From the NCBI GenBank assembly GCA_019187225.1, contig JABAQQ010000029.1:1-64000 (forward strand): DNA of 64,000 nucleotides, read 5' to 3'. This DNA is from Saprospiraceae bacterium. GTDB lineage: Bacteria > Bacteroidota > Bacteroidia > Chitinophagales > Saprospiraceae. Under the pieces are notes generated by a model. That model made no database searches. It was not told the origin of the DNA and saw only the letters and a program-made list of their open reading frames with translations. Positions 1,501 to 44,426 of this stretch are shown here, piece by piece. The translations under genes and the position numbers were made by a program. Every line of letters starts with the position of its first letter. Position 1 is the first letter of the stretch.

Positions 1501-1605
1501 GGGACGTTGGACTATTGGACGTTGGACGTCAGACATTGGACTATTGGACTCCTGCAATCAACTCTACGGGTCTAACGTCCAATGTCAAAAAGTCCAACGT
1601 CTAAT
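1501..1605. repeat. Inverted array of GGACGTT/GGACTATT units after ftsZ
   Basis: One arm (1501-1552) holds units GGACGTT, GGACTATT, GGACGTT, GGACGTC, AGACATT, GGACTATT. The opposite arm (1569-1605) holds the reverse units AACGTCC, AATGTC, AGTCCAACGTC. The arms can fold into a long imperfect hairpin. The ftsZ stop codon (TAG, 1601-1603) is the edge of the array, and the operon terminator lies on its far side. The architecture matches arrays at 15.1, 19.1, 20.4, 23.1, 35.3 and 44 kb, although the unit sequence differs. Confidence 0.8.
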
Positions 1606-3097
1606 CTACATTGTCGTGCAAATACGAATTCCCGCCCACGCGGATTTCGCCTTCTTCTTCGAGTGAAATCGTCCAGTTCGACATTTCGGGCTGCTCCGAA
1701 TCGGGCACATCGTCGAGATTGATGCTCTTGCGGAGGTAAGCCGGTTGATTTTCCAGTTCGATAATCGTCTGCGGCGAGTTCAACTTCACCACATTAATCG
1801 GGCGGTTGAGCGCCTCCTGGCGGCGGCGCTGCGCTTCCTCGATGCGGCGGCGGCGTTCTTCCGGCGAGATTTCATCGTCTTCAGGCCGGCGGATATGCGG
1901 GTCGCTGTTGGCAGGTGTCGTGCGGCGGATCTTGTCCACCGTCTCCCGGATGTTGTCGAACTCGAATTCGAGTGCGGTGGCAGCCTTCTCGTCCACCGGG
2001 GCATACGGCTCATCGGACGTAATCGTAAAGAGAGAAGGCTGGTTCTTTTTTCCGGCGGCCTCGTCGTCGAGGTGAACGACCTGTCGCTCGTGCGGATTGG
2101 CCTGGCGCAGCGGCGTCGTTTGACCCGGCACACGGCGCTCGCTCACCTCGAAGCCGGTGGCGATGATCGTGACAGCCAGTTTGTCGCCCAGGCGCTCGTC
2201 GAAGCAGTTACCCCAGATGAGGTTGGCGTTTTCGCCGGCTTTTTCCTGCACAAATTGCGTGATCTCGAAAATCTCGTCCATCGTCGCCTCCTTCGCGCCG
2301 GAGGTGATGTTGACCAGGATGTTCTTCGCGCCGTAGATGTCGTTGTCTTCCAGCAGCGGCGAACGCAACGCCTCGTCGGCGGCGCGGAAGGCGCGGTTGT
2401 CGCCCTCGACGCAGGCCGTGCCCATGATAGCCACCCCTGAGCCGCGCATCGTGGTGTTCACGTCCTCGAAGTCCACGTTGACATAGCCAGGCACGGTGAT
2501 GATCTCGGCAATACCTTTGGCGGCAGTGCAAAGGATGTTGTCCGCTTCGGCGAATGCTGCCGATATGCTGAGGTTGCCGAAGATGTCGCGCAGTTTGTCG
2601 TTGGAGATAATGACCAGACAGTCCACGTTTTTGCGCAATTCTTCGAGACCTTCGAGGCCGTTGCCCACACGGGTTTTGCCTTCGAAAGTGAAAGGGAGGG
2701 TGCAGATACCCACCGTCAGAATACCCATTTCCTGTGAAGCTTTGGCAATAATGGGCGCTGCGCCGGTACCGGTGCCGCCGCCCATGCCGGCAGTGATGAA
2801 CACCATTTTGGTGCCGTCTTCGAGGAAACGTTTGATCTCGTCGAGGCTCTCGATGCAGGCTTGTTTGCCCACTGAGGGCTTGCTACCTGCGCCGCGTCCT
2901 TCGGTGAGGAGTTGGCCCAGCGAAATTTTGGTGGGCACCGGGCTGAGATTCATGGCCTGTGCGTCAGTATTGCAAATGGCGTAGTCCACGCCAACGATGC
3001 CTTGTTTGTACATGTGGGTCACGGCATTGCTCCCGCCGCCGCCGACTCCAATGATTTTAATGATGGAAGGTTCATCCTTCGGAAGATCGAATAACAT
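1601..3097 (-). CDS. ftsZ: Cell division protein FtsZ
   Basis: Tubulin-like GTPase that polymerises at mid-cell to build the division ring. The 498-residue protein shows the nucleotide-binding GVGGGGSNAV (17-26), the tubulin signature GGGTGTG (106-112), and the T7-loop region. A long acidic, charged linker (about 330-445) follows. The C-terminus carries PAYLRKSINLDDVP (from about 452) and ends SYLHDNVD, the conserved tail typical of Bacteroidota FtsZ, which binds FtsA and other membrane tethers. It is the last gene of the dcw cluster, 157 bp after ftsA. That gap is filled by a palindromic repeat module, and a hairpin terminator follows. Start ATG with MLFDLPKDE fits the family N-terminus. Confidence 0.98.
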   Translation of the reverse strand: MLFDLPKDEPSIIKIIGVGGGGSNAVTHMYKQGIVGVDYAICNTDAQAMNLSPVPTKISLGQLLTEGRGAGSKPSVGKQACIESLDEIKRFLEDGTKMVFITAGMGGGTGTGAAPIIAKASQEMGILTVGICTLPFTFEGKTRVGNGLEGLEELRKNVDCLVIISNDKLRDIFGNLSISAAFAEADNILCTAAKGIAEIITVPGYVNVDFEDVNTTMRGSGVAIMGTACVEGDNRAFRAADEALRSPLLEDNDIYGAKNILVNITSGAKEATMDEIFEITQFVQEKAGENANLIWGNCFDERLGDKLAVTIIATGFEVSERRVPGQTTPLRQANPHERQVVHLDDEAAGKKNQPSLFTITSDEPYAPVDEKAATALEFEFDNIRETVDKIRRTTPANSDPHIRRPEDDEISPEERRRRIEEAQRRRQEALNRPINVVKLNSPQTIIELENQPAYLRKSINLDDVPDSEQPEMSNWTISLEEEGEIRVGGNSYLHDNVD

Positions 3098-3134
3098 GAT
3101 ATTTTGAATTTGAGTGAGTTATCGAGTTTCTTCT

Positions 3135-3240
3135 CCCACCGATAAATCGGTGGGTTGAGTTGATAAAGTCCTGCGGACTTGGACATTCAGCCCACCGATT
3201 TATCGGTGGGATCAATACAAATGCACCGATAAATCGGTGA
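3135..3240. repeat. REPIN-like palindrome module 1 (ftsA-ftsZ junction)
   Basis: Palindrome CCCACCGATAAATCGGTGGG (3135-3154), then TTGAGTT..A, a 15-bp palindrome AAGTCCTGCGGACTT (3166-3180), then TTGGACATTCAG and a second palindrome CCCACCGATTTATCGGTGGG (3191-3210). A decayed third copy sits at 3223-3240. The same order recurs at 5987-6141 and 9278-9353. It starts 14 nt after the ftsA stop codon. Two inverted palindromes around a short spacer is the organisation of REPINs. Confidence 0.85.
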
Positions 3241-3254
3241 GAACACGTACAGGG

Positions 3255-4586
3255 TCATTTTTTCCTTTCGAAATCCAAATCGGGTTCTGCCTCGAACCAC
3301 TCCTTGGTCTTTTTGAAAACCGTGTCGAACCACGACGGACCCTTTTCTTCGGAAACATTGGAAGGCTCGCGGTCGTCGGAAACGTTCTGATTGTCAACCG
3401 TTTGGCTGTTGCCCGGCTCGATGTCCTGCAAACCGCGCAGCAGCAATCCAATACCGGTGCTGAAAATCGGGCTGCTGACTTTTTCGTGGTAGCCGTGCGC
3501 GAGGTTTTCCACCGGCACACCGATGCGGCAAGCCATGCCGGTGTGGAATTCGGTGAGTTTGTCGGCGTGGAGCATGAGCGCTCCGCCGCCGGTGAGCACG
3601 ATGCCACCGATGAGTTTGCGCTCGTAGCCGCTGCGCCGGATTTCCCAGAGTACGTAGTCGAGCACTTCTTCCATGCGCGCCTGGATGATGCGGGCGAGGT
3701 TTTTCTCGCTGATCTCCTTGTGGTCGCGCCCTTTGAGGCCGGGGATGGTGATGATGCGGTTGTCGAACACCTCGTTGGCGAGGGCGGAGCCGAATTTGAC
3801 TTTGAGTTTTTCGGCCTGCGGCTGCATCACGGTGCAGCCTTCTTTGATGTCGGCTGTGATGACGTTGCCACCGAAGGGGATGACCGCCGTGTGGCGGATG
3901 ATGCCCTCGTGAAAGATGGTGATGTCGGTGGTGCCGCCGCCGATGTCCACAAGCGCCACACCCGCCTGTTTTTCCTCTTCGCTGAGGGTGGCGTCGGCGC
4001 TGGCGATGGGTTCGAGGGTGAGGTCGGCGACTTTGAGGCCGACCTTCTCGATGCAGCGGTAGATGTTGTTGATGGCCGTGATTTGGCCGGTGATGATGTG
4101 GAAATTGGCTTCCAGCCGCACGCCACACATCCCGACGGGGTCGGTGATGCCCTGCTCGGAGTCCACGGTGAACTCCTGCGGGAAGACGTGGATGATCTTG
4201 TCGCCGGGCGGCAGCACGAGTTTGAACATGTCGTTCACCAGCCGGTCAATGTCGCGCCGGGCGATCTCGGTGTGGTCGCTGTCGCGGGTGAGGATGCCCC
4301 GGTGCTGGAGGCTTTTGATGTGCTGGCCTGCAATGCCGACATGGACGCTGCGAAATTTCATGCGGGCGTTGCGCTCGCAGATGTCAACGGCTTCGCGGAT
4401 GGCGTTCACGGTTTTTTCGATGTTCGACACCACGCCGCGCAGCACGCCGGCGCTTTCGACTTTGCCGATGCCGAGGATTTCGAGTTTGCCGTGCGTGTTT
4501 TTGCGTCCTGCGAGGCAGCACACTTTTGTCGTTCCGATGTCGAGTGCAACTACAACATCATGGGGTTGTGGGAGTAATTCCGTCAT
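3255..4586 (-). CDS. ftsA: Cell division protein FtsA
   Basis: Actin-like ATPase that tethers FtsZ to the membrane and recruits later division proteins. The 443-residue frame has the actin-fold phosphate-1 motif ALDIGTTKVCCLAGR near the N-terminus, the SHS2-type 1C region (EILGIGKVESAGVLRGVVSNIEKT), the phosphate-2 motif LVDIGGGTTDITIF, and the adenosine motif GGIVLTGGGALM. The C-terminal part ends in a charged, amphipathic stretch (WFDTVFKKTKEWFEAEPD) that fits the membrane-targeting helix. It is followed by ftsZ and preceded by a 315-bp gap holding a good promoter match, so ftsA-ftsZ can probably be expressed apart from the rest of the cluster. The small lipoprotein gene between ftsQ and ftsA is not a usual member. 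Confidence 0.97.
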   Translation of the reverse strand: MTELLPQPHDVVVALDIGTTKVCCLAGRKNTHGKLEILGIGKVESAGVLRGVVSNIEKTVNAIREAVDICERNARMKFRSVHVGIAGQHIKSLQHRGILTRDSDHTEIARRDIDRLVNDMFKLVLPPGDKIIHVFPQEFTVDSEQGITDPVGMCGVRLEANFHIITGQITAINNIYRCIEKVGLKVADLTLEPIASADATLSEEEKQAGVALVDIGGGTTDITIFHEGIIRHTAVIPFGGNVITADIKEGCTVMQPQAEKLKVKFGSALANEVFDNRIITIPGLKGRDHKEISEKNLARIIQARMEEVLDYVLWEIRRSGYERKLIGGIVLTGGGALMLHADKLTEFHTGMACRIGVPVENLAHGYHEKVSSPIFSTGIGLLLRGLQDIEPGNSQTVDNQNVSDDREPSNVSEEKGPSWFDTVFKKTKEWFEAEPDLDFERKK

Positions 4587-4666
4587 AACGTTTCTGTTTA
4601 AGTGGTCGAGTTTCAGTTTGTTTTCTCGTTACCCCCTGCTGCCGGCACGAAACTCTTTTCCGGCAA

Positions 4667-4696
4667 CAAAGGTATTTTTAAATTTTTTGTTTCAAA
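4667..4696 (-). promoter_or_regulatory. Internal promoter for ftsA-ftsZ
   Basis: On the minus strand TTTG (4693-4696), an 18-bp AT-rich spacer and TACCTTTG (4667-4674) match the Bacteroidota -33/-7 consensus (TTTG, TAnnTTTG). The predicted start is about 70-75 nt before the ftsA ATG. The rest of the 4587-4901 gap holds no gene or other clear element. Confidence 0.6.
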
Positions 4697-4901
4697 ATTT
4701 TTTGTTTGGTTTTTTGTCATTCTGGAAGAATCTGTCCACTCCAAACGATCGCCCGCACTTATCTTGCCCTCGTAGATTGGACGGTTGTTTACAACATGAC
4801 AAACTCACTCTACTCTAAAAACTCCATCTCGCTTTTCACGTCCTCTCGTCACAGTTTGGCTTTTGTAGTTCCCTCACTTCGTTCGGGGTTACAACATGAG
4901 G

Positions 4902-5213
4902 TTATTTGCTTAAGTAAATCGTATCGTTTTGAGGGTTTACAACTCGTTGACTGCGATAACCTTGTTTGGATATTTCCAATTCCAAATCCGGGCATCTCCA
5001 AAGGCCTCCTGAAATGTAACTGGCCTCAAAACTTCCATTCTTTCCGGAATAAAATACCCATTCGGATTCCCGTTTGCTCATTTTTCTAATCTTCACACTA
5101 TCAACAGGCAGATTAGTCGCAGCATCAAGAACTACTCCGCTTCCGTCCTGAATGCAATCGCCGCAGCCAGCCAGGAATAAGATGAGTTTGAGATATAATA
5201 TCACTTTCTGCAT
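4902..5213 (-). CDS. Small lipoprotein with carboxypeptidase-regulatory-like fold, inside dcw
   Basis: A 103-residue protein with a lipoprotein signal (MQKVILYLKLILFLAGCGDC, lipobox LAGC). The mature part (SGVVLDAATNLPVDSVKIRKM, then GSFEASYISGG, then LELEISKQGYRS) has the sequence pattern of a CarboxypepD_reg-like beta-sandwich: a decorated-protein domain, not an enzyme. Its ATG overlaps the last 13 bp of ftsQ, so it is probably translationally coupled and co-transcribed with the division genes. It is more AT-rich than ftsQ and ftsA and is not part of the standard cluster. A role in division is not shown. Confidence 0.7.
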   Translation of the reverse strand: MQKVILYLKLILFLAGCGDCIQDGSGVVLDAATNLPVDSVKIRKMSKRESEWVFYSGKNGSFEASYISGGLWRCPDLELEISKQGYRSQRVVNPQNDTIYLSK

Positions 5214-5974
5214 ACGACCTGTCCGTTGTACTTCAAATTTATTGTTTCATACGCCCGCCATCCCGAATACGGCATTCCCTCCCGGTAAAAAATCTTCAGG
5301 CGGTTCAGTTTGTCGTCCAGTTTTCTTGCCGAACCCAATACGATTTTCTGGTCGCCCACAAGCGGAACAAGGATGAACTCACCCGCGTTGTTGATGTGGA
5401 TTTGCTGGATGAACGAGCCCAAAAATTCGTCGGCCAGCAGGGTTTGGGTCAGGGCAAAAAGGTCTTTGAGCGTATTCCGTTTCTTTTCCCGGAACTCGGC
5501 CGTGTATGGCGCCACATTGCCTGTTGCGATCAGCACCCGCGCGGCAAAATTTTTGGAGGGCGGCATCTTTTTGCCGTTTTTATCTAAGTAATAATTGCCG
5601 CCGTTGTTGTCGAGCACCCGCAGCACGGGTTCGCGTTGGGTGACTTTTACGTGCAAAATATTCTTCTGGTCAATGTAGGTCTCCGCGTCCAGTACGAAGG
5701 GATCCTGCTCCAGCACCCGCTCCATGCGCTCCACTTCGAGGCGACCGAGTTCGGTGCCTTCGAGCGTGTTGCCGAAAGAGATCAGCAGTGCCTGCCGAAC
5801 ATCGCGCTCACTGATGAGTTTGTCGCCGCCAGGAAGCGGTACTACCTCCACCCGCAGCCCGTCGGCAAAGGCGTCCTTCTTCCGGCGGATGGCCGCGAAG
5901 AGCAAGAGACCCACCGCCAGGAGGAATACTACCCAGAGGATACGATCGTAGCGGAGATGTGGCGCTTTCAGCAT
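5201..5974 (-). CDS. ftsQ: Cell division protein FtsQ/DivIB
   Basis: Bitopic membrane protein that links the early ring to the septal synthase and works with FtsL. With the ATG at 5974 it has 257 residues: a short basic cytoplasmic end, one membrane helix (about 13-32, ILWVVFLLAVGLLLFAAI), a POTRA-like domain (VEVVPLPGGDKLISERDVRQAL) and a beta domain ending QVVCRK. An upstream in-frame GTG at 5990-5992 would add MGKKRK, but it lies inside a CCCACCG palindrome and is probably not the start. Sequence conservation of FtsQ is low; the call rests on length, topology, the POTRA-type opening and its place between murC and ftsA. Confidence 0.9.
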   Translation of the reverse strand: MLKAPHLRYDRILWVVFLLAVGLLLFAAIRRKKDAFADGLRVEVVPLPGGDKLISERDVRQALLISFGNTLEGTELGRLEVERMERVLEQDPFVLDAETYIDQKNILHVKVTQREPVLRVLDNNGGNYYLDKNGKKMPPSKNFAARVLIATGNVAPYTAEFREKKRNTLKDLFALTQTLLADEFLGSFIQQIHINNAGEFILVPLVGDQKIVLGSARKLDDKLNRLKIFYREGMPYSGWRAYETINLKYNGQVVCRK

Positions 5975-5986
5975 TTTTCGTTTTTT

Positions 5987-6141
5987 CCCCACCGATCAAT
6001 CGGTGAGTTGAGTTAAAGAAGTCCAAAGGACTTGGATATTCAGCCCACCGATTTATCGGTGGGATTTCAGGTTCGCATTCAGCCCACCGATTTATCGGTG
6101 GGATTTCAGGTTCACATTCAGCCCACCGATTTATCGGTGGG
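5987..6141. repeat. REPIN-like palindrome module 2 (murC-ftsQ junction), with tandem expansion
   Basis: It begins with a variant palindrome (ACCGATCAATCGGT, 5987-6006), then AAGTCCAAAGGACTT (6019-6033), then three copies of CCCACCGATTTATCGGTGGG at 6044-6063, 6083-6102 and 6122-6141. The copies are spaced exactly 39 bp apart with a near-identical spacer (ATTTCAGGTTCxCATTCAG). The last copy supplies the final residues SHR and the TAA stop of murC. The first touches the alternative GTG start of ftsQ. Confidence 0.9.
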
Positions 6142-7498
6142 AAATAAATGATTTTATCGGTTCAACCATCGTATCAATATCTCCCGCCCCCATTGTCATC
6201 AGCACTTCCAGGTTCCTGGTTTTCAGCACATTCAATAGTTCGCTTTTCGTTGTCAGGGTCACGTTTTTGTTTTGCATCAAGCCCGCGATCATGGCTGATG
6301 TCACCCCGGGTATCGGCAGTTCGCGGGCGGGATAGATGTCGAGCAGGATGCACACGTCCAGCATGTCCAGCGCCGCTGCAAAACCATCAGCGAAGTCGCG
6401 GGTGCGGGTGTAGAGGTGCGGCTGGAAAATACCGGTGACCTTGCGATCCGGCCACAGCATTTTGGCAGCGCCGATCACAGCTTCAAGTTCGGCGGGATGG
6501 TGGGCATAGTCGTCCACGTACACCACGTTTTCATTTTTGAAAATCGTCTCGAAGCGGCGTTTCACACCTTTGAAACCGGCCAGGGCGGTTGGCAATTCGG
6601 GAGCAAAACCGCCTGCTGCAAGCGTGGCTGCAATAGCAGCCGTTGCGTTCAGCACGTTGTGCAGTCCGGGGTAATTGAGCCGCAGATCGCTCCAATCCAC
6701 GATGCTCGATTTGAGACCGAACGCCATTTGGCCATCCGCAACATGGACGTTATAGGCTTCGTAGTAGCCCTCGTCTATGCCGAATGTGAACACATGCCGG
6801 CCCGAAGCGCGCAGTTCCGCCGCGACGTCGTCGAGCGGCAGCCCGTGGCGGTAGATCAGTTTTCCGCCAGGCTTGATTTGGCGGACGAACTGCTTGTACG
6901 ATTCCACCACCGCTTCGGGTGTGCCGTAGATATCGAGGTGGTCGGGGTCGAGCGAGTTCAGCACAGCGACTTCGGGGTGGAGGTGCAGGAACGAGCGGTC
7001 GTACTCGTCGGCTTCCACCACAACCCAGTCGCTGGCGCCTTCCACGAAGTTGCTGCCGAGATTGAGCGAAATTCCTCCGACGAACGCTGTAGCGTCCACG
7101 CCGCAGGCGCGGAGCAGGTGAGCGGTCATGGTACTGGTAGTCGTCTTGCCGTGCGTGCCGGCGATGGCGACGCAGCGTTTGGCTTTGCTGATGATGCCGA
7201 GCACTTCGGCGCGCTTTTTTACCGGTAAATCATGTTGCAAAAACCAGTTCAGTTCCGCGTGGTCTTTCGGCACGGCGGGTGTGTACACCACCAGATCAAC
7301 GTGATCGGGAATAAAACTTACGTCGTCGTCATAATGAATGTGCATTCCTTCGTCGGCCAGGGCGCGGGTCAGGTCGGTTTCGGAGCGGTCATAGCCGTAC
7401 ACGTCGGTGCCGTGCTTTTTGAAATAGCGCGCCAGTGCCGACATCCCGATGCCGCCGATGCCGATGAAGTAGATGCGTTTTATGTCGTCGAAATTCAT
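6131..7498 (-). CDS. murC: UDP-N-acetylmuramate--L-alanine ligase
   Basis: Cytoplasmic Mur ligase that adds L-alanine to UDP-MurNAc using ATP. The 455-residue protein has the N-terminal Rossmann motif IYFIGIGGIGMSALA, the Mur-ligase P-loop IAGTHGKTTT, the central EADEYDRSFLHL and NSLDPDHLDIY motifs, and the C-terminal YVDDYAHHPAE, all characteristic of MurC. It lies upstream of ftsQ; the junction is a palindromic repeat block that reads into the gene end, so the last three residues (SHR) and the stop codon come from the repeat. The DUF389 gene upstream ends 29 bp before its start. Confidence 0.97.
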   Translation of the reverse strand: MNFDDIKRIYFIGIGGIGMSALARYFKKHGTDVYGYDRSETDLTRALADEGMHIHYDDDVSFIPDHVDLVVYTPAVPKDHAELNWFLQHDLPVKKRAEVLGIISKAKRCVAIAGTHGKTTTSTMTAHLLRACGVDATAFVGGISLNLGSNFVEGASDWVVVEADEYDRSFLHLHPEVAVLNSLDPDHLDIYGTPEAVVESYKQFVRQIKPGGKLIYRHGLPLDDVAAELRASGRHVFTFGIDEGYYEAYNVHVADGQMAFGLKSSIVDWSDLRLNYPGLHNVLNATAAIAATLAAGGFAPELPTALAGFKGVKRRFETIFKNENVVYVDDYAHHPAELEAVIGAAKMLWPDRKVTGIFQPHLYTRTRDFADGFAAALDMLDVCILLDIYPARELPIPGVTSAMIAGLMQNKNVTLTTKSELLNVLKTRNLEVLMTMGAGDIDTMVEPIKSFISHR

Positions 7499-7527
7499 TT
7501 TAACTGTTGATAAGGGTTGATAGAGGT

Positions 7528-8889: not shown

Positions 8890-8898
8890 GCCTTTGTA

Positions 8899-9261: not shown

Positions 9262-9277
9262 GTTTTTACCTTTTATC

Positions 9278-9353
9278 CCCACCGGTAAATCGGTGGGTTG
9301 AGTCGAAAAAAGTCCTTCGGACTTGGCACTCAGCCCACCGGTTTACCGGTGGG
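9278..9353. repeat. REPIN-like palindrome module 3 (after murG)
   Basis: CCCACCGGTAAATCGGTGGG (9278-9297), then TTGAGTCGAAAA, AAGTCCTTCGGACTT (9310-9324) and CCCACCGGTTTACCGGTGGG (9334-9353). Same order and spacing as the modules at 3.1 and 6.0 kb; paired changes (A/T to G/C on both sides) keep each palindrome intact, which points to selection on the folded form. It starts 22 nt after the murG stop codon. Confidence 0.85.
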
Positions 9354-9375
9354 GGATTCGTATGGACGTTGGTGT

Positions 9376-10506: not shown

Positions 10507-10539
10507 TTCAACTTTATTCAGGTTTGGTGCGATATTTTT

Positions 10540-11030: not shown

Positions 11031-11034
11031 GAAC

Positions 11035-12168: not shown

Positions 12169-12192
12169 TGTTGTTGGTTGTTGGTTGTCAGA

Positions 12193-14894: not shown

Positions 14895-15056
14895 CATTAG
14901 GGGGCATTAGGGGGCATAGGGGGCATTGTCGGTATTGCTTTAAATACAGTAATTTTTATCGTGACCTAAATTACTGCAATGGCCTCAAAATTTGGCTGTG
15001 GGGCGATATTACATCGCCCCGCAACCTGCTCAAAATAATAGTCCCTCCACTATTAT
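14895..15056. repeat. Cluster of direct repeats and three hairpins between murE and mraY
   Basis: In the 363-bp gap: CATTAGGGGG twice plus a shortened copy (14895-14923); then a hairpin CAGTAATTT/AAATTACTG (14948-14956 with 14968-14976); then GGGGCGAT/ATCGCCCC (15000-15020); then ATAATAGT/ACTATTAT (15035-15056). None is followed by a T run on the minus strand, so they do not look like terminators. No gene is visible here. Confidence 0.7.
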
Positions 15057-15061
15057 ATCTT

Positions 15062-15222
15062 GTTGTTGGTTGTTGGTTGTTGGTTATTGGTTATTGGTTA
15101 TTGGTTATTGGTTGTTGGTTGTTGGTTATTGGTTATTGGTTATTGGTTGTTGGTTGTTGGTTGTGCAATATCCTTGTATCCAACAGCCATTAACTGACAA
15201 CCAATAACCAACAACCAATAAC
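15062..15222. repeat. Inverted TTGGTTG/TTGGTTA heptamer array after murE
   Basis: A tandem run of seven-base units TTGGTTG and TTGGTTA fills 15062-15164, and the inverted units (AACCAAT, AACCAAC) occupy 15197-15222. The inverted arm starts about 10 nt after the murE stop codon (TAA, 15232-15234). A plus-strand open frame across the run (reading WLLVVGYWLLVIG) is a by-product of the repeat, not a gene. Confidence 0.9.
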
Positions 15223-15231
15223 AAATACCTA

Positions 15232-16725
15232 TTAACTCATCGCTTTCAAAAGAACTTGTTTGTCATCGAAAGGGTATTTCACCCCGTTGACGTCCTGGTA
15301 TTTTTCGTGGCCTTTGCCCGCTACCAGTATTATGTCGTTCGGTCCGGCCAATCGGACTGCCGTTTTGATGGCTTGTTCGCGGTCCTGGATCACCAGCGTT
15401 TTTTTCAATCCTTCTGCATCCAGACCTGCTTCCATATCGCGCAGGATGGATGCGGGGTCTTCGGTGCGGGGGTTGTCGCTGGTCAGGATCAATTGGTCGC
15501 TCATCCGGGCACTTAACTGCGCCATCAGGGGTCGTTTGGTTTTATCGCGGTCGCCGCCTGCACCGGTAACCGTGATGACACGCGATGTTTTTTTCTTTAG
15601 TTTCTGGATGGTTTCGAGCACTTTTTCCAGCGCATCGGGGGTGTGGGCATAATCCACAATCCCGATACAGCCGGGTTGGGAGGGGTGATTGATGTAGTCG
15701 AAACGGCCTTCGGCGCCGTGGAGGTCAGAGAGCGCGGTTAGGATGTCCAGTTTACTAAACCTTTGAGGTTTAGTAAACTTCGCCATGAGTGTCGCCACCG
15801 CATATGCCGCCGTGAGGTTGTAAGCGTTGAATTCTCCTATCATACGGGCAAAGAGTTCTGCGCCATCCAATTCCAGGTGAAGTCCCGTCAGGCTGTTATC
15901 GATGATCTTCGCTTTAAAATCAGCCACCGTGCGCAGCCCGTAGGTGTAATGAGCAGCTTTGGTATTTTGCAGCATCACCGCGCCGTTTTTGTCGTCGGCA
16001 TTGGTAAGGGCGAAGGCCATTTTGGGCAGGTCGTCAAAGAACTTCTTCTTGGCATCGCGGTATTCCGCGAAAGTTCGGTGGTAATCGAGATGGTCGTGGG
16101 TCAGATTGGTGAATACGCCACCCACGAAGGTCGCTCCGGCGATCCGCCGCTGGTGCACCGCATGGCTGCTGACTTCCATGAACACGTGCGTACATCCGGC
16201 ATCGGCCATTTGGCGCAACAATCCGTGCAACTGCACCGCATCGGGAGTGGTGTGGGTACTGGGGACAACGTCCTCCCCTACCCTGTTTTCCACCGTACCG
16301 ATAAGGCCGCACTTGTATCCTAAGCGGGTGAACAGTTGCCACAGCAGGGTCACGGTGGTGGTTTTGCCGTTGGTGCCAGTCACACCAATCAATTGGAGGT
16401 CATGCGAAGGGTCATTGAAGTAATTGGAGGCCATTTGACCGAGGGTTTCAGCAGAATCCTCCACGCATACCACTGTGATTTCGGATCCCGCGTTAGACAA
16501 ATCCGAAATCCGAAATCCGAAATCCGAAATAACAAGCGCCGCCGCTCCCCTTTCTATCGCTTTGTCAATGAACTGGTGTCCGTCCACCTGCACTCCCCGT
16601 ACCGCCACGAACACATCGCCGGGCTGCACCTGCCGCGAATCGAAGCGGATTTGGCCGACTTCGGTGGCGAGGATGCCGCGTGCGTCCAGGATGCGGACGT
16701 TTTGGAGGAGGTGGTTGAGTGTCAT
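15232..16725 (-). CDS. murE: UDP-MurNAc-tripeptide (meso-diaminopimelate) synthetase with two in-frame repeat insertions
   Basis: Mur ligase that adds the third residue of the stem peptide. The 497-residue protein has the P-loop GTNGKTTT (117-124), TNLTHDHLDYHRTF, GRFDYI and DNPR (417-420), the signature for meso-diaminopimelate as substrate, then AGKGHE. Two stretches look foreign. Residues 66-83 (ISDFGFRISDLSNAGSEI) are encoded by an inverted AAATCCG heptamer array. Residues about 316-326 (KFTKPQRFSKL) come from a perfect 13-bp-stem palindrome. Both leave the frame open and lie outside the catalytic motifs, in surface-type regions of the N-terminal and central domains. Upstream is a 182-bp gap to ftsI without recognisable features. 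Confidence 0.96.
   Translation of the reverse strand: MTLNHLLQNVRILDARGILATEVGQIRFDSRQVQPGDVFVAVRGVQVDGHQFIDKAIERGAAALVISDFGFRISDLSNAGSEITVVCVEDSAETLGQMASNYFNDPSHDLQLIGVTGTNGKTTTVTLLWQLFTRLGYKCGLIGTVENRVGEDVVPSTHTTPDAVQLHGLLRQMADAGCTHVFMEVSSHAVHQRRIAGATFVGGVFTNLTHDHLDYHRTFAEYRDAKKKFFDDLPKMAFALTNADDKNGAVMLQNTKAAHYTYGLRTVADFKAKIIDNSLTGLHLELDGAELFARMIGEFNAYNLTAAYAVATLMAKFTKPQRFSKLDILTALSDLHGAEGRFDYINHPSQPGCIGIVDYAHTPDALEKVLETIQKLKKKTSRVITVTGAGGDRDKTKRPLMAQLSARMSDQLILTSDNPRTEDPASILRDMEAGLDAEGLKKTLVIQDREQAIKTAVRLAGPNDIILVAGKGHEKYQDVNGVKYPFDDKQVLLKAMS
15749..15779. repeat. Palindrome inserted inside murE
   Basis: AGTTTACTAAACC (15749-15761), loop TTTGA, GGTTTAGTAAACT (15767-15779): 13 bp of perfect stem within coding sequence. 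It encodes about 10 residues of MurE (316-326) at a point where family members pass directly from the ATLMA helix to LDILTAL. Confidence 0.85.
16477..16530. repeat. Inverted heptamer array inserted inside murE
   Basis: Four tandem AAATCCG units (16499-16530) and an inverted copy GATTTCGGAT (16477-16486) form a hairpin of the same architecture as the intergenic arrays, but in frame within murE (residues 66-83, ISDFGFRISDL). With seven-base units, only certain copy numbers keep the frame open. Confidence 0.85.
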
Positions 16726-19055: not shown

Positions 19056-19057
19056 TT

Positions 19058-19178
19058 TGTTGTTGGTTGTTGGTTGTTGGTTGTTGGTTCTTGGTTGTTG
19101 GTTCTTGGTTGTTGGTTATCTATCATCATTTTAACCAAGAACCAACAACCAAGAACCAAGAACCAACAACCAAGAACT
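19058..19178. repeat. Inverted TTGGTTG/TTGGTTC heptamer array between ftsL and ftsI
   Basis: Tandem TTGTTGG and TTCTTGG units (19058-19119) are followed by a short spacer and the inverted units (AACCAAGAACCAAC..., 19132-19178). The array fills the entire 121-bp space, from the ftsL stop codon (TAG, 19177-19179) to the ftsI ATG. On the mRNA it would form a long hairpin directly before the ftsI start. Confidence 0.9.
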
Positions 19179-20436: not shown

Positions 20437-20523
20437 TTTTTAATGATGAATTATAAATGATAAATGATGAATCACCCTATACGGCCTCTCCCGCATCATT
20501 CATCATTCATCATTCTGCATTCA
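20437..20523. repeat. Inverted ATGATGA/TCATTCA array between mraZ and rsmH
   Basis: One arm reads AATGATGAATTATAAATGA (about 20441-20472) and the other CATTCATCATTCATCATT (about 20496-20513), with a GC-rich centre between. It fills the mraZ-rsmH gap and begins at the mraZ stop codon (TGA, 20521-20523). The units are seven bases, as in the other arrays, but more decayed. Confidence 0.75.
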
Positions 20524-23045: not shown

Positions 23046-23157
23046 ATTGCGGATTGCGGATTGGGGATTGGGGATTGGGGATTGGGGATTGCGGATTGCG
23101 GATTGGGGATTGATCTGAAGCGGTAAATCCGCAATCCGCAATCCGCAATTCCCAATC
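23046..23157. repeat. Inverted GGGGATT/GCGGATT heptamer array
   Basis: Tandem GCGGATT and GGGGATT units (about 23046-23112), a short spacer, then inverted AATCCGC units and CCCAATC (about 23126-23156). It fills the gap between the outer-membrane barrel gene and the GLPGLI gene and begins 3 nt after the barrel gene's stop codon. Confidence 0.9.
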
Positions 23158-35035: not shown

Positions 35036-35250
35036 GCTGGTATTGTATTCAATAGTGAAAGGCGGGGCAGGTATCCGACCACCCGATGAAAAATGGAGAA
35101 TAAAAGAATTGGAAGCAGTGTTTCGGAGTGCGTGTCCGGGCAATGCGATCCGGCGTTTGCGCAATTATGATGTTGTAAAGCAACGTGTTTTCCTGCAGTT
35201 TTTAACAAAACAAAAGTTTTCTTTTCAAATTAGGGTATTTCATTAGTACT

Positions 35251-35401
35251 TGGACATTGGACATTATCAAATTTTATATTTTTATATTAATAATTTTCAA
35301 TTTTTAAAGTTTAAAATGTCCAATGTCCAATGTCCAATGTCCAATGTCCAATGTCCAATGTCCAATGTCCAATGTCCAATGTCCAATGTCCAATGTCCAA
35401 T
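35251..35401. repeat. Inverted AATGTCC heptamer array
   Basis: Twelve uninterrupted copies of AATGTCC (35315-35398, plus AAT), preceded by two inverted copies GGACATT (35252-35265) and a 49-bp AT-rich spacer. It lies in the 398-bp gap between the FG-GAP gene start and the end of the PorE-like gene, starting about 30 nt after the PorE-like stop codon. Short frames reading SNVQCPM in both directions are repeat artefacts. Nothing else is seen in the gap. Confidence 0.92.
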
Positions 35402-35433
35402 AAGGCAACCCGGGAACCAACAGCGCCGGGTCA

Positions 35434-37599
35434 TCAATACCGCAGCACCACAAACTCCGTCCGCCGGTTTTCCTGGTGTTGTTTTTCGGAGCATTCCACG
35501 CCGTCGCGGCAACGGTTGCGGAGTTGGGTTTCGCCGAAGCCTTTGGCGGCGATGCGGCGGCCGGCGATGCCTTTCTGAATGATGTAAATGGCGGCCGATT
35601 CGGCGCGGCGCTGCGAGAGCGCCTGGTTGTAATCGTCTTTGCCCCGGCTGTCGGTGTGGGAGCGCAGTTCGATTTCTATCGTGGGATTCAGCTTCAGGAT
35701 TTGCACCATTTTGTCCAACTCTTTGGCCGCGTCGGGCCGGATGTTGTGTTTGTCGTAGTCGTACAAAATGGGTTTGAATTGGAAGCCGCTGATCGTCAGG
35801 TTTTCATCTATGACATTCACTTTTTCCAGCTCGATCACGTCGATGGAAAGGTAAAGTTTGACGTACAACGTGGTCGTCCGGTCGAGACCTTTCGTGGTAG
35901 CAGTGCCGACGGTGGTAAAGTAGGCGTCTTTTTCTCCTACCAACTGATAATCCGCTTTTTGCGCAAGCTGAAAAGTAAAATTACCTGTCCCATCCGAAGT
36001 AATAGAATCCACTTGCATGGTTTTCAGGTTGGTGAGCCGCACCAAGACGCCCGCCACGCCGGATTTGGTTTTGCCATCGAGGCACTGCCCGCGCAGGGTG
36101 AAGCGCGGATCGTTGTGTTCGAGTTCGGCAAACATTTTTTCGCCCGGTTTCAGGTCGCCTGCTTCGGCGCGTTGTACACTGGTGGCAATACCGTTTTTCA
36201 TGCCGCTGATTTCATAAGCGCGATTCGGATTCACCGGCACGACCGCTTGTCCCTGGGCGTTGGTAAATCCGGTCAGCACATCGCCAGTGTTGAGGTCGCG
36301 CACTTCTATCGCTACGTCGGGCAGGGGAATACGGGTGTGTTTGTCCACCACTTGTATGGTAAGTTCGTTGGCAGGTTTCATCTGTTTGAAAAAATAGACA
36401 TCATCGGTGCCGTTCGCATTGTTGCGGTTGCTGGCAAACCACCCTTCCGTAAGATCGCCCCGGCTGATCAGACTGAAATCGTCGAACGGCGAATTGATCG
36501 GAAAGCCGAGGTTTTGCGGTTTTTGCCATGTTCCATTCTCGTACCGGGAAAGGAACAGGTCGAGGCCGCCAATACCCGGATGCCCGTCCGATGCAAAAAT
36601 CAGGTGACCTTCGTCGGTCAGAAAAGGCCACAGTTCCATGCCGGGCGTATTGACGACATGGTTCAGGGGTTGCGGTTCCGACCAGGCATCTCCTGTTTTT
36701 TTACACATAAAAAGGTCGAAGGCGCCCGCGGAACCGGGCCGGTCGCTGGCGAAAACGAGCGTTTTACCGTCGCGGCTGAGCGCCGGGTAGCCGCTGCTGA
36801 ATTCTTTGGAATTGTATGGAAACGCTCCATCCATCTGCCATTTGCCGTTGGAAAACGCGGCGGCGTACAAACTGAGGTGCAACACGTCGCCGCGTCCTTT
36901 GCCCTTGCTGTTGCGGGTGAAATACATCCGCTGACCGTCGGCGCTGAAACAAGCCGCCGCGTCGTGGTACGTGCCATTTACCTCGCCGCGCAAGGGTTCG
37001 GCTTGCGCGCTGCTTTGTTGTGCGAAGTAAAGTCCTGTAAAAGAACGCCCGGAGGAGGCGTCTTTTTTATCTCCTGCACTCGATCGGTCGGAACTGAACA
37101 CCAAGCCGCCTGCAAACCAGGTCGGCGCGAATTCAGCGGCATCGGACGTGTTGAACGGCGCGGGTTTGACATCGAACCGGCTTTCGTTTTTGTAAAACAA
37201 CTCCATGTCGCGCACCGCTTGCCGGAGCGCCAGTCCGCGGGCGTCGCCCGGTTTGTGTTCCAGGAATAACTGCGCCTGACGGTCGGCCTCTTCGCGTTGT
37301 TCGGAACAAAGCAGCATCTGGGCGTAATACAGCCTGTTTTCAGGGTCGGCGAAAGGCATTTCCAGCAGGCGCGCATACCACTTTTGGGCGTTGTGGTATT
37401 GTTGCGTCAGGCGGTAGCAGTGCGCCAGTTTTTCAGCGGCTTCCGCGTTGTGGCCCTTTTCCAGCACTGTCAGGTACAGTTCGATGGCGCGGGCATATTC
37501 GAGATGTTCGTAAGCATCGTTGGCTTTTTCAAGCGCCCGCTGGCCGAACGACAGGAACGGCGCGATGAGAAAGCAGCAGCAGAATAATATCTTTTTCAT
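35434..37599 (-). CDS. PorE-like T9SS protein (TPR, PD40 propeller, CRD, OmpA domain)
   Basis: A 721-residue exported protein (signal MKKILFCCCFLIAPFLSFGQ). Order of domains: TPR-type helices (about 22-130), PD40 beta-propeller blades (about 155-400: VFSSDRSSAGDK, VFASDRPGSAGAFDLFM, IFASDGHPGIGGLDLF), one or two carboxypeptidase-regulatory-like domains (about 408-590) and an OmpA C-terminal domain (about 610-721) with IELRSHTDSRGKDDYNQALSQRRAESA, whose D/R residues bind diaminopimelate. This is the architecture of PorE, the type IX secretion component that anchors the machine to peptidoglycan, and of several paralogues in this phylum. It lies downstream of a PorP/SprF gene and a type B cargo gene. 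Whether it is the general PorE or a cargo-specific paralogue cannot be told here. Confidence 0.88.
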   Translation of the reverse strand: MKKILFCCCFLIAPFLSFGQRALEKANDAYEHLEYARAIELYLTVLEKGHNAEAAEKLAHCYRLTQQYHNAQKWYARLLEMPFADPENRLYYAQMLLCSEQREEADRQAQLFLEHKPGDARGLALRQAVRDMELFYKNESRFDVKPAPFNTSDAAEFAPTWFAGGLVFSSDRSSAGDKKDASSGRSFTGLYFAQQSSAQAEPLRGEVNGTYHDAAACFSADGQRMYFTRNSKGKGRGDVLHLSLYAAAFSNGKWQMDGAFPYNSKEFSSGYPALSRDGKTLVFASDRPGSAGAFDLFMCKKTGDAWSEPQPLNHVVNTPGMELWPFLTDEGHLIFASDGHPGIGGLDLFLSRYENGTWQKPQNLGFPINSPFDDFSLISRGDLTEGWFASNRNNANGTDDVYFFKQMKPANELTIQVVDKHTRIPLPDVAIEVRDLNTGDVLTGFTNAQGQAVVPVNPNRAYEISGMKNGIATSVQRAEAGDLKPGEKMFAELEHNDPRFTLRGQCLDGKTKSGVAGVLVRLTNLKTMQVDSITSDGTGNFTFQLAQKADYQLVGEKDAYFTTVGTATTKGLDRTTTLYVKLYLSIDVIELEKVNVIDENLTISGFQFKPILYDYDKHNIRPDAAKELDKMVQILKLNPTIEIELRSHTDSRGKDDYNQALSQRRAESAAIYIIQKGIAGRRIAAKGFGETQLRNRCRDGVECSEKQHQENRRTEFVVLRY

Positions 37600-37620
37600 G
37601 TTGACATTGTATTTGGGAGG

Positions 37621-37664: not shown

Positions 37665-37722
37665 ACGCTGATAATGAATCACCCGGACGGAAAAGATTTC
37701 CGTCATACTACTTAATCATTCT

Positions 37723-37880: not shown

Positions 37881-37882
37881 TA

Positions 37883-38824: not shown

Positions 38825-38905
38825 GGTTTATTTCATTTTTTGGTGAAAATACCGGGCGGGCTTTTCTTTTTCACCCGCCCGGAAAAGCATAACAATCCTC
38901 CCTTT

Positions 38906-41902: not shown

Positions 41903-41926
41903 AGTATGTTGATTTTAAAGGAAAAA

Positions 41927-41984
41927 AGCCTCCGCCCGAGTGGCACGGCACTCGGAAACTGCACACTGCCTGCGGATGGAGGCT
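41927..41984 (-). terminator. Two-part hairpin with T run, between the DUF6252 gene and the T9SS operon
   Basis: AGCCTCC (41927-41933) pairs with GGAGGCT (41978-41984), and inside it CCGAGTG pairs with CACTCGG. On the minus strand the structure is followed by a T6 run (41922-41927). It is 33 nt past the DUF6252 stop codon and 25 nt before the start codon of the type B cargo gene, so it can act as terminator for the first and, if read through, as an attenuator-like leader for the second. Confidence 0.7.
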
Positions 41985-42016
41985 AAGGGAAAGGGGAAAG
42001 TTCTTTGGGGAACGAC

Positions 42017-42463
42017 TTACTGGTAAGCGACGTTGAACTCGCCGTCTTTGAAAGAGGCGGTACCGCCGTTAAAAGCGTCTTCACCCTCGAACTCGAACGT
42101 GCCTTTGATGCGTTTGCCCGCCGTGTCGTGCTCCGTCACCACCACTTTGCCCGACTTGGGCGTGTAAAGCGAAGTGCTGCCGCCGGTGTAAGAAACCTGT
42201 ACATCACCGAACGCTTCGATGGTGTAGGTGCCCGCCGCTACGTTGGCCGGAAGTACCAGCATCAGGGTTTTGAACGTTGCCGCATCAGCGCCGGTAAGCG
42301 AAATGTTGTCGCCCAAAGCAGCCCCGGCAGTCGTGGGCGCTACCCATTCCGATCCGTTGATCGAAACGCGAATGCCTTCAAAGTCATTGTCGGAGTCTTT
42401 TTTGCAGTTGGCAAAAACGAGGGCCACAAGGCCAAGGAGGATGAAAGAACGAAAGGTCTTCAT
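42017..42463 (-). CDS. DUF6252 family lipoprotein
   Basis: A 148-residue lipoprotein (MKTFRSFILLGLVALVFANCKKD, lipobox FANC). The pattern INGSEWVAPT, LMLVLPANVAAGTYTI, SGKVVVTEHDTAGKRIKGTFEFEG, then ASFKDGEFNVAY at the end matches the DUF6252 beta-sandwich family of Bacteroidota lipoproteins. The function is unknown. It is divergent from the sigma-factor gene (230 bp between start codons, no clear TAnnTTTG box seen). Confidence 0.85.
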   Translation of the reverse strand: MKTFRSFILLGLVALVFANCKKDSDNDFEGIRVSINGSEWVAPTTAGAALGDNISLTGADAATFKTLMLVLPANVAAGTYTIEAFGDVQVSYTGGSTSLYTPKSGKVVVTEHDTAGKRIKGTFEFEGEDAFNGGTASFKDGEFNVAYQ

Positions 42464-42693
42464 GACGTTAAAAAAAGTTTTGGTTAAATGATGTGATTAT
42501 GTTGCCCCTACTCTGTTAGCGGCTTTTCGGGTTCCGCCGTTGATTGTACCTGTTTCGTACACGCCCATATCCGCGTCTCTTTTCTTTTGTTACCTCATCC
42601 GCAATTTTTTTTCAAAAAAATATTTTAAGCCCCCACCTTTACCTTCGCCTTCGGATAATTTGTATTCCGACCACGCCGCTCCGCAACAAAACC

Positions 42694-43266
42694 ATGCACA
42701 CCGATACCCGTTATATTCATGCGCTACTGCACAATGACCGTCAGCTCATTGAAGAGATTTACACCCGCTACTCCGCCCGTATCGCACGTTTCGTACAGGC
42801 CAACAACGGTTCGGCGGACGACGCCCGCGATGTGTTTCAGGAAGCCCTCATCTCCATTTCGAGGCAGGCACTCCGGCCGGGTTTCGTACTAACCTGCCCT
42901 TTCGAAGCGTATCTCTATTGTGTATGCCGGGGCAAATGGCTCAACGAACTCAAACGCCGCCAGAGAGAAATCGTAACAATCAGCGAAACCGGCGGATATG
43001 CCGGAACAGAAATAGCCGACGCACTCGCCGATGCCACCATGCTGGAGGAAGAGCGCGACCGTCTGTTCCGCCTTTTTTTTGAAAAATTATCTGCCGGCTG
43101 CCGCCAGTTGCTCCGCCTGGCATGGTCGGGCATTTCGATGGAAGAGGTAAGCGCGCAATTGGGTATGAGTTACGGATACGCCCGCAAAAAGAAACATGAG
43201 TGTGTGAACCAATTGATGACACAAATCCGCAATTCGCCTCAATTTACGCTCATCAAAAACCCATAA
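42694..43266 (+). CDS. ECF-type sigma-70 factor
   Basis: A 190-residue sigma factor starting MHTDTRYIHALLHNDRQLIEEIY. Region 2 includes YTRYSARIARFVQANNGSADDARDVFQEALISI. Region 4 is the helix-turn-helix CRQLLRLAWSGISMEEVSAQLGMSYGYARKKKHECVNQL (about 145-180). The open frame is longer upstream, but the ATG at 42694 fits the family. The next gene, 9 bp downstream, encodes a membrane protein with a zinc-less anti-sigma-like N-terminus and TPR, the usual partner in this phylum. Targets are unknown; the divergent T9SS operon and the CHAT locus are possible ones. Confidence 0.9.
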   Translation: MHTDTRYIHALLHNDRQLIEEIYTRYSARIARFVQANNGSADDARDVFQEALISISRQALRPGFVLTCPFEAYLYCVCRGKWLNELKRRQREIVTISETGGYAGTEIADALADATMLEEERDRLFRLFFEKLSAGCRQLLRLAWSGISMEEVSAQLGMSYGYARKKKHECVNQLMTQIRNSPQFTLIKNP

Positions 43267-43275
43267 CCGATCCGC

Positions 43276-44010
43276 ATGGAAGAACTATACGCCCGCATCG
43301 AGGATTATCTGGACGGCGCCCTGACTGCCGCCGAGCGCGTGGCTTTCGAAGCAGAATTGCAGGCCGACCCGGCATTAGCAGAGGCGCTGCAGCAGGTACG
43401 CGAAACCCGGGAACGGCTCGCCATGCAATGGACTCAGGAAAGCAAAGAGGCCGGATTGCGAAAGACGCTCAAAGAATTGGGTAAACAACATTTCAGCGGC
43501 GGCGGCTCAGCGAACGAGGTGGCGCGCCGCATCCCATTGGTGCGGTGGTGGATGGCAGCGGCAGTATTGACAGCGATCGCTATCTGGATTTTTTGGCCGG
43601 CAGGAGAAAACGCCTTGTACGACCGCTACCGCCAATTCCCTGAAGCGGCATTCACGGAGAAAAGTGGCGGCGCACCAACCCTCAGTGAAGCCGGGCAATT
43701 GTTCAATGACGAGAACTACGCTGCCGCATTGACCATTTTAACCGCCCACCTCGAACAACAGCCCGCCGATCTTGAAGCGCGGTTTTTCGCGGGACTTTGC
43801 CAATTGGAAACCGGCCGGTTGACCGCCGCAGAATCTGCTTTCCGCCAAATCCTTTCCAACGAAAATGCATGGTCGCAGGAAGCGCGCTGGTACCTGGCAC
43901 TTACCTTTCTGAAAGGCAAAAAGACACCGGAATGTAAAGAGACTCTGAACCGAATACAGCCCGGCGAAGCATACTACGAGGAGGCACAGCAATTGTTGAA
44001 AAAACTGTGA
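43276..44010 (+). CDS. Membrane-anchored TPR protein, probable anti-sigma partner
   Basis: A 244-residue protein. The N-terminus (MEELYARIEDYLDGALTAAERVAFEAELQADPALAEAL split over 1-38) has the short-helix pattern of anti-sigma cytoplasmic domains, without a zinc-binding HxxxCxxC. One membrane helix (about 93-112, WWMAAAVLTAIAIWIFWPAG) leads to a periplasmic part with TPR-like helices (LSEAGQLFNDENYAAALTILTAHLEQQPADLEARFFAGLCQLETG). It is translationally close to the sigma gene, so it probably controls it. The stop codon is followed at once by a GGACGTT array. Confidence 0.8.
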   Translation: MEELYARIEDYLDGALTAAERVAFEAELQADPALAEALQQVRETRERLAMQWTQESKEAGLRKTLKELGKQHFSGGGSANEVARRIPLVRWWMAAAVLTAIAIWIFWPAGENALYDRYRQFPEAAFTEKSGGAPTLSEAGQLFNDENYAAALTILTAHLEQQPADLEARFFAGLCQLETGRLTAAESAFRQILSNENAWSQEARWYLALTFLKGKKTPECKETLNRIQPGEAYYEEAQQLLKKL

Positions 44011-44067
44011 GTGGACGATGGGCTGTTGGACGTTGGACAGTTGGACGTTGGACTGTTGGACTGTTCG
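44011..44067. repeat. GGACGTT/GGACTGTT array immediately after the TPR gene
   Basis: Starting at the base after the TGA: GTGGACG, then units of TGTTGGACG, TTGGACAG, TTGGACG, TTGGACTG, TTGGACTG. The inverted counterpart is at 44398-44426, after the converging rdgB gene. The unit resembles the one after ftsZ (1501-1605). Confidence 0.85.
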
Positions 44068-44140
44068 ATGCTGATCTTCTGACAACCAGTGGGAGCGTTC
44101 AAAATAGTATGCTATTCCGCATTACCCCAACACTGCATGA

Positions 44141-44336
44141 CCGACCGCGAAGCGGTCAAATTTGATTAGCCCATGTGTAACGCGGGGCTGATGGACAGAA
44201 GAAGTTTTGCAACTGCGGAGCAGTTGAATCGCATTCCAAGCAATTGATATTCAACCGCTTCGCGGTTGGCATTACGGGGTGAGGCTCCCCCCGTGTTGCA
44301 CACGGGGTTAATCAAATTTGATCGCTTCGCGGTCGG
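44141..44336. mobile_element. 196-bp MITE-like element with ~47-bp terminal inverted repeats
   Basis: The left arm (44141-44187, starting CCGACCGCGAAGCGGTCAAA) and the reverse complement of the right arm (44289-44336, CCGACCGCGAAGCGATCAAA) match over nearly their whole length, through TTTGATTA to CACGGGG. Inside are smaller palindromes AACTGCGGAGCAGTT and AACCGCTTCGCGGTT. It has no coding capacity and sits between the two halves of the GGACGTT array in the gap between converging genes. Confidence 0.75.
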
Positions 44337-44397
44337 ATTTACGGCAGTTAAAAAACAAAATGACACGCTTTTTTAAACACTCCCCAACCAGTCGTTG

Positions 44398-44426
44398 AGT
44401 CTAATGTCCAACAGTCCAACGTCCAC
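44398..44426. repeat. Inverted half of the GGACGTT array, immediately after rdgB
   Basis: Read on the minus strand this begins right after the rdgB TGA with GTGGACGTTGGACTGTTGG, the same opening (TGA-GTGGACG) that follows the TPR gene on the other strand. So both converging genes end in the same way. Confidence 0.8.

Follow-up and report, generated by a model that had tools for sequence, protein, structure and literature searches.

What are the paired arrays of 7-bp repeats that occupy several gene gaps of one Saprospiraceae bacterium, and why do they so often begin at a stop codon? We addressed this question in a 64,000-nt stretch of its genome (G000:C29:1-64000, called the window hereafter; the genome comprises 7.18 Mb in 73 contigs), which carries a division and cell wall (dcw) gene run on the minus strand. 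Pfam matches identify ftsZ, mraY, murE, PBP/ftsI, mraW, and mraZ in this run, and the genes that we take to be ftsA, ftsQ, ftsL, ftsW, murC, murD, and murG were named by gene order. Among named sequences, MraW is most similar to those of Saprospiraceae and other Bacteroidota. A first-pass annotation of the window had described seven junctions with a tandem run of about 7-bp units and the same units inverted. In our assessment, these arrays are probably dispersed, lineage-specific inverted repeats similar to miniature inverted-repeat transposable elements (MITEs) or repetitive extragenic palindromic (REP) sequences, in which the 7-bp sub-repeats of the arms grow and shrink by replication slippage. 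Such an explanation joins three things that are usually described apart, namely heptamer repeats, stop-codon-anchored stem-loops, and MITE/REP-like elements.

Inspection of the sequence and Tandem Repeats Finder confirmed tandem units of about 7 bp with an inverted partner at all seven junctions. The hairpin detector used here (ungapped inverted repeats, arm score of at least 14, span of at most 420) returned 14 hairpins in the window, and the six with 7-bp periodic arms lie at six of the seven junctions. The seventh (44011-44067 with 44398-44426) has a spacer of about 330 nt; it is visible in the sequence and falls under the detector threshold. Six junctions belong to minus-strand genes and the remaining one, at 44 kb, to a convergent pair. 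As described earlier, all but one of the seven abut a stop codon or lie very close to one, with edges ranging from overlap to a distance of 4 nt. In the TTGGAC family, the array at 1501..1605 overlaps the ftsZ stop (1601), and that at 44 kb lies 0 nt from the stops at 44010 (+) and 44427 (-): its left arm (44011..44067), made of mixed 7- and 8-bp units, begins one base past the first, and the last base of its right arm (44398..44426) directly precedes the second. The third member (35250..35401), whose second arm consists of 12 identical units, is the exception that had already been recognized, lying 32 nt from the stop at 35434. The TTGGTT family contributes an array with unequal arms (103 vs 48 nt) in the murE-mraY gap (15062..15227), 4 nt from the murE stop at 15232, and another (19056..19177) that occupies the whole ftsL-ftsI gap from stop codon to start codon, overlapping the ftsL-like stop at 19177. 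An ATTGSGG-family array (23046..23157) lies 3 nt from the stop (23161) of a TonB-receptor-like gene, and an AATGATG-family array (20437..20523) fills the whole mraZ-mraW gap, overlapping the mraZ stop at 20521. A further hairpin with GACCGCGAAGCGGTC palindromes (44141-44336) is situated within the spacer separating the two arms at 44 kb. A single-arm AC-rich heptamer stretch (AACCAAC, 12169..12192) is present in the interval between the murD stop and the ftsW start.

To place the window in its genome, we used a sample of 864 kb (12%), composed of the window and 40 stretches of 20 kb from two fixed positions on each of the 20 largest contigs. This sample contained 120 hairpins, 25 of which were inverted heptamer arrays, compared with 5 hairpins and 1 array in a single replicate of first-order Markov sequence of the same size. 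Among tandem repeats with periods of 4-15, period 7 was dominant: 53 runs were found, with the two arms of a locus counted separately. Of these, 39 are intergenic and 14 fall within called genes, compared with at most 14 intergenic runs for any other period. With respect to their dominant period, dispersal, and mostly intergenic position, these runs correspond to heptameric short tandem repeats (STRR/LSSR). The claim that the unit differs each time, with unrelated sequence, was abandoned, because the seven junctions of the window fall into four families and six families hold 52 of the 53 runs.

Genes were defined by our own codon-model calls, without annotation, at four score thresholds, and the stop distances depend on these calls. 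At a gene score of at least 15, heptamer runs or inverted arrays were present in 11 of 87 convergent, 24 of 332 co-directional, and 2 of 79 divergent gaps, an enrichment in the convergent and a depletion in the divergent class. In 14 of the 24 co-directional gaps, which hold single runs or inverted arrays, the repeat lies within 10 nt of the stop, vs 7.6 expected from random placement inside the same gap (p=0.0003). The result was stable at thresholds of 10, 20, and 30 (14/24, 13/24, and 13/22; p at most 0.0003), and thus the enrichment after stops extends to the sampled 12% of the genome. At threshold 20, 13 of 24 co-directional gaps contain an inverted array, and 8 of these 13 are within 10 nt of a called stop, the ftsL stop not being called there. 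No enrichment was detected on the start side of the 24 co-directional gaps (8 within 10 nt of a start vs 7.6 expected, p=0.50). Some convergent arrays reach from stop to stop (distances of -1/-2 in locus L133, 1/-2 in L139, and 1/6 in L150). It should be noted that array families are not independent observations, as the arrays of this genome represent about seven families.

The 53 runs cluster as 19, 12, 8, 5, 4, 4, and 1, corresponding to ATTGSGG, GGTRGAC, TTGGTTN, TTGGACN, AATGATG, TGGGCAG, and a singleton. Several families are restricted in their spread. Three exact copies of GGTRGAC in tandem occur 884 times in this genome and once in 24 relatives, making this family nearly private; triple TTGGTTN has 167 matches here and 3, 16, 9, and 5 in four of the 24 relatives, all of the same genus; and triple GGATTGC has 67 matches here and 18 and 2 in two others, so that it is present in 3 of 296 phylum genomes including this one. 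The TTGG..CCAA form was found in 33 of 395 phylum genomes including this one; outside this genome it has 60 matches vs 31 for the opposite-polarity control, partly overlapping and concentrated in few genomes, and a phylum-wide spread was dropped, the excess being only weak. A period of always 7 was also given up, since periods 8, 9, and 10 occur in relatives (about 10 in genome G007 and 9 in loci L006 and L007). The scan for arrays was confined to Bacteroidota.

The TTGGAC family includes a dispersed inverted-repeat element. A 20-nt core of this family has 102 matches when up to 3 mismatches are allowed, and its reversed control has 0. With a limit of 2 mismatches, this genome has 85 matches and three of 39 relatives have a single match apiece, the level of the control in those genomes (2 control matches in total). 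The aligned copies define a palindromic element of 107 bp, with ends TAAGTA...TACTTA or near in most copies. Among 34 aligned copies, 23 measure 107 bp, with the others at 108 (3), 106 (1), 114 (3), 100 (3), and 115 bp (1); six copies therefore differ by exactly 7 bp, that is, by one heptamer more or less. In addition, one or both arms are expanded by heptamers in the copies at L208, L212, and L193. The array at 1501..1605 is a diverged relative of this element (78.8% over 66 nt, E 9.5e-6; vs the L208 copy, 76% over 104 nt, E 5.5e-10). Many near-identical dispersed copies with terminal inverted repeats, as expected of a MITE, were observed for this family only. With an intact element, one-heptamer variants, and long arrays of the same heptamer in one genome, the birth and growth of arrays become traceable. 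The idea of a copying mechanism in the first-pass annotation accordingly survives in altered form, as a few dispersed families and one intact 107-bp element. Non-heptamer sequence is also shared within the TGGGCAG family, and likewise within GATTTGA together with L127, L114, and L147. The hairpins of these three loci (L127:8300-8500, L114:14950-15120, and L147:17760-17920) have a similar loop (GCAACTTCTAAAATC in L127 and L114, partly in L147), and both arms appear by eye to be altered together between loci, which could serve to test templated arm correction.

BIME and RAYT transposases are grouped with REP palindromes. The genome has three Y1_Tnp matches, and the loci of about 3 kb around them carry other palindromes, none of TTGGAC type; spread of the heptamer element by a RAYT was dropped on this ground. 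A separate REP-like palindrome family (CCCACCGATAAATCGGTGGG) is represented in the window at 3134-3211, 5981-6148, and 9277-9354, with 36 sites at up to 2 mismatches in the 864 kb, four of them in called coding sequence. One Y1-transposase gene (L234:1486-1938) is flanked on both sides by CCCACCGATAAATCGGTGGG palindromes, as in REP/RAYT systems.

Under the slippage explanation, a short element whose arms each hold two or three heptamers would be copied to many places, and its arms would expand in 7-bp steps until they reach sequence that cannot change. In a gene gap, expansion would halt at the stop codon at one end and at the start region of the following gene at the opposite end, which is how arrays would end up spanning stop to start or stop to stop. 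Arrays would then be filtered by selection at gene edges and be best tolerated directly after stops. Stop anchoring may thus represent a boundary of tolerance and the array length the outcome of slippage, and we infer that every family, beyond TTGGAC and partly TGGGCAG and GATTTGA, began as such an element. The resulting RNA hairpins are probably incidental or secondarily used. Where both neighbors are known (27 of 30 loci), the intact element occupies convergent gaps 10 times, co-directional gaps 12 times, and divergent gaps 5 times. Since it is mostly not stop-anchored, anchoring seems to come with expansion rather than with insertion, and must then arise after the intact element has inserted.

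Comparison of 18 loci at orthologous dcw junctions showed that the same gap may hold a different array, a different hairpin, or nothing (G and L numbers below are our labels for genomes and loci; G009:C1 and L001 are probably one genome). The mraZ-mraW gap carries AATGATG units here, TAGTGTT units in G006 (beginning with the TAG stop itself), TGATAAG-type units in L007, and TGAAGTGA-type units in L006; it measures -1 to 34 nt in L173, L176, L002, and L175. In L003-L005 it is 72-82 nt long and lacks a clear array. In G007 and G009, GGTTGATAAAGG-type hairpins with units of about 10 were seen by eye at several adjacent junctions. In L171 and L173, the murE stop codon lies within a TAGTGGAGGGACT block which in the window sits past the array. 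Of two close relatives, G007 has no clear array at ftsW-murG and G009 a hairpin, and their ftsL-ftsI gaps differ in length (459 nt in L169 of G007 vs 102 nt in L170). The listed ends of this gap in L169 are filled with single-arm AC-rich heptamers (AACAACCACCAACGAAC), which continue as far as the start codon of ftsI.

The presence of 14 runs within called coding sequence suggests that arrays arise anywhere and are then filtered by selection. The coding score per codon of the genes concerned is 0.127-0.268 (called-gene median, 0.196). One such run, of the ATTTCGG family, lies in the window inside murE (16499..16530) and encodes a portion of a MurE stretch whose length is reduced by 2 to 8 codons in four relatives (four of 10 alignments listed). 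Arrays that overlap stops or lie inside murE can alter protein ends and mislead gene calling.

Could the arrays instead be kept because a hairpin after the stop codon stabilizes, processes, or ends the mRNA? The first-pass annotation had proposed selection of this kind, and the bias toward 3' ends together with stop anchoring is compatible with it. Moreover, according to the accessible part of one report, clustering past stop codons and within convergent gaps is a general property of stem-loops (PMC1590033). The predicted folds are strong: six segments of the window (two trimmed to 150 nt) gave -31.6 to -67.3 kcal/mol with z-scores of -6.7 to -12.0, comprising 1501..1605 (-45.9 kcal/mol, z -8.9), 15080-15229 (z -8.6), 19058-19178 (-67.3 kcal/mol, z -12.0), 20437..20523 (z -6.7), 23046..23157 (z -8.9), and 35251-35400 (z -7.3). 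Such folds make an effect on the transcript possible regardless of origin. In addition, hairpins of differing classes occupy one junction across relatives, for example, murE-mraY and ftsA-ftsZ. Against this, several relatives have no hairpin at the same junction, 14 of 53 runs lie in called coding sequence, and several arrays separate co-directional dcw genes, which are essential, and are thus unlikely to be strong terminators. An intrinsic terminator would have a GC-rich stem with a T run behind it; by eye, no T run was seen after the 3' arm in the sense of the genes at the six minus-strand window arrays. At the gathering score of Rfam, no family matched the arrays in the window.

The mismatches within arms are also informative. 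RNA pairing should favor G.U pairs, and in 28 arrays with a clear transcript sense, a small sample, 19 mismatches were of G.U type and 21 of A.C type; selection for RNA pairing through wobble pairs is thus unsupported and was dropped. Non-array hairpins from this genome, its relatives, and other Bacteroidota loci have 84 A.C and 54 G.U mismatches, the opposite of the RNA-pairing prediction. The order of units was also compared between arms. The arms of L138 match in register, with an odd unit included (3 of 63 mismatched vs at least 12 when shifted by 7 or 14). In L150 and L129, the two longest arrays, aligning the arms in register gives hardly more matches than aligning them out of register, so that arms are not always ordered copies, and the arms at murE-mraY are of unequal length. 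Overall, the 3'-end bias stands, and selection for a 3'-end RNA hairpin as the reason for these arrays appears rather unlikely.

A different role for RNA, which we regard as improbable, is a hand-over of ribosomes, in which the stem would pair the stop-codon end of one gene with the leader of the next and the terminating ribosome would open it or bridge to the next start (translational coupling). Several co-directional arrays do reach from stop to start (mraZ-mraW and ftsL-ftsI here, as well as cases in G006 and L007), and their 3' arm is AC-rich and G-poor immediately ahead of the start codon. The same design exists, however, in convergent gaps that have no start codon (11 of 87), and start-side anchoring is at chance.

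A further regularity concerns the polarity of the arms. In this genome, G exceeds C in the 5' arm of 24 of the 25 arrays, the remaining one being a tie. The same holds for all 5 arrays from 20 stretches of relatives and for 15 of 16 from mraW-region loci, which makes 44 of 46 in total. The last set derives from 80 mraW-region loci of other Bacteroidota, in which 16 arrays came from 10 loci; L052 is low-complexity, and L037 and L040 hold an identical array. Non-array hairpins have only a mild polarity (120 vs 71, with 27 ties). In the whole genome, the pattern TTGGNNNTTGG...CCAANNNCCAA has 20 matches at 16 places, and the opposite polarity has 0. Of the 39 single intergenic heptamer runs, 34 have a G-rich strand that reads away from the closest called gene edge (22 vs 3 at stops and 12 vs 2 at starts), a figure that may count both arms of one locus. 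This rule matches published observations in Xanthomonas, Nostoc, and Beggiatoaceae: the accessible parts of these reports describe the same orientation for Xanthomonas and Nostoc heptamers (PMC4692102), TAACTGA repeats fit an outward G-rich orientation (PMC4679880), and no established cause was found. At starts, the polarity may reflect avoidance of false start codons together with leader structure.

Another possibility is that structure of the G-rich strand, such as a quadruplex or R-loop, drives expansion, with the sequence set by ease of slippage and no need for a mobile ancestor. In five of the six families, every unit contains GG or GGG, and the window unit GGGGATT equals the GGGGA(C/T)T repeat of Nostoc; the part of the Xanthomonas/Nostoc study available to us gives in vitro quadruplex evidence for its repeats and the same G-rich orientation near stops (PMC4692102). 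However, AATGATG and the TAGTGTT-type units of relatives lack strong G runs, and the TTGGAC family has an intact dispersed element. We therefore consider this mechanism very doubtful.

Several observations weigh against an origin of the arrays from mobile inverted repeats that expand by slippage. Slippage by itself does not predict that independent families share one fixed arm polarity. The 107-bp element, with ends as read, has no target-site duplication in 31 of 34 copies and 2 nt in the other 3, unlike a typical MITE, and insertion with target duplication was consequently dropped. No enzyme was linked to it, transposase-bearing copies with these ends not having been searched for. Only 3 of its 12 co-directional copies lie within 10 nt of a stop, and it tolerates divergent gaps (5 of 27). 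The TTGGTT family is not private, being common to four congeners, and the searches of relatives for restricted spread did not include AATGATG and TGGGCAG. When heptamers were masked, 25 of 51 array regions had no match elsewhere in the own-genome sample and 45 own loci searched, and some matches of the other 26 were residual heptamers or the same place found twice; dispersal as whole elements is thus only putative for the GGTRGAC, TTGGTT, and ATTGSGG families. Moreover, the mismatch test on 28 arrays is small, and 4 of the 14 in-gene runs lie within 51 nt of a called gene end, where the start or stop call may err. Some of these points would be accommodated by scars of DNA-end extension, in which the same G-rich heptamer is added to exposed 3' ends (slippage- or template-driven, telomere-like) and the extended ends are joined. 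Both arms would then form at once with their G-rich strands inward, head-to-head like fused telomeres, which would explain the polarity (44/46; 20 vs 0) as well as the recurrence of one heptamer at numerous unlinked positions where no other shared sequence was found (25 of 51 regions). We nevertheless give this process only a slight chance, and expansion of dispersed inverted repeats by slippage remains the explanation that we favor.

Finally, the arrays were compared with known systems, as far as the accessible text of the respective reports goes. The BrickBuilt MITE-minisatellite of Porphyromonas gingivalis (PMC4596501), also from Bacteroidota, is dispersed between genes, combines inverted and tandem repeats, and gains and loses units between strains. 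It differs in having a 23-nt unit, 19 copies, and small inverted ends flanking one tandem run at 49-591 nt from coding sequence, whereas the arrays described here have 7-nt units in both arms of a palindrome, touch stops, and form six families. The GGGNATC and GGGGA(C/T)T repeats of Xanthomonas and Nostoc (PMC4692102) are likewise genome-wide heptamers, with a GGGGATT unit identical to ours. As here, their G-rich strand is the coding one within 50 bp past stops and the non-coding one ahead of starts; the repeats were treated as G-rich runs of one unit type, with four units preferred and no paired inverted arms. TAACTGA repeats of Beggiatoaceae, cyanobacteria, and Bacteroidetes (PMC4679880) are intergenic heptamers on the forward strand before starts, and one Bacteroidetes set is reversed, immediately past a stop codon. 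Nearly all of them, however, are direct repeats (169 direct sets and one inverted in Maribeggiatoa), mostly just upstream of starts. The P6b stem of the Nostoc trnL intron (PMC4476775) is built of 7-nt motifs (TDNGATT or NNTGAGT) and varies in length, but it is a single site in a group I intron. REP palindromes (PMC12306157) are dispersed between genes, and 446 of the 4,072 E. coli palindromes lie no more than 15 nt from a stop; REP/BIME (bacterial interspersed mosaic element) palindromes have no heptamer arms, and the REP-like family of this genome is separate, beside a Y1 transposase (RAYT, REP-associated tyrosine transposase). Stop anchoring per se is not new, because clustering of stem-loops after stops and in convergent gaps is known from the available text of one study (PMC1590033). 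The titles and abstract openings of the open-licence literature, to which the search extended (subscription papers being outside its scope), described no paired inverted heptamer arrays after stop codons, and what appears to be new is that such anchoring occurs together with lineage-specific heptamer families and a founder-like element that is still intact.

Two further features of the window deserve mention. The sole Rfam match is a DUF805b RNA at 42505-42540 on the minus strand (48.7 bits). Upstream of mraY, at about 15001-15059, the murE-mraY interval contains a AATAGTGGAGGGACTATT...GAGC block that is present in 8 of the 13 relatives listed there, and in the window and L173 it is followed by a GGGGCGAT..ATCGCCCC hairpin. 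This block, which matches no Rfam family in the window, is a candidate leader element.

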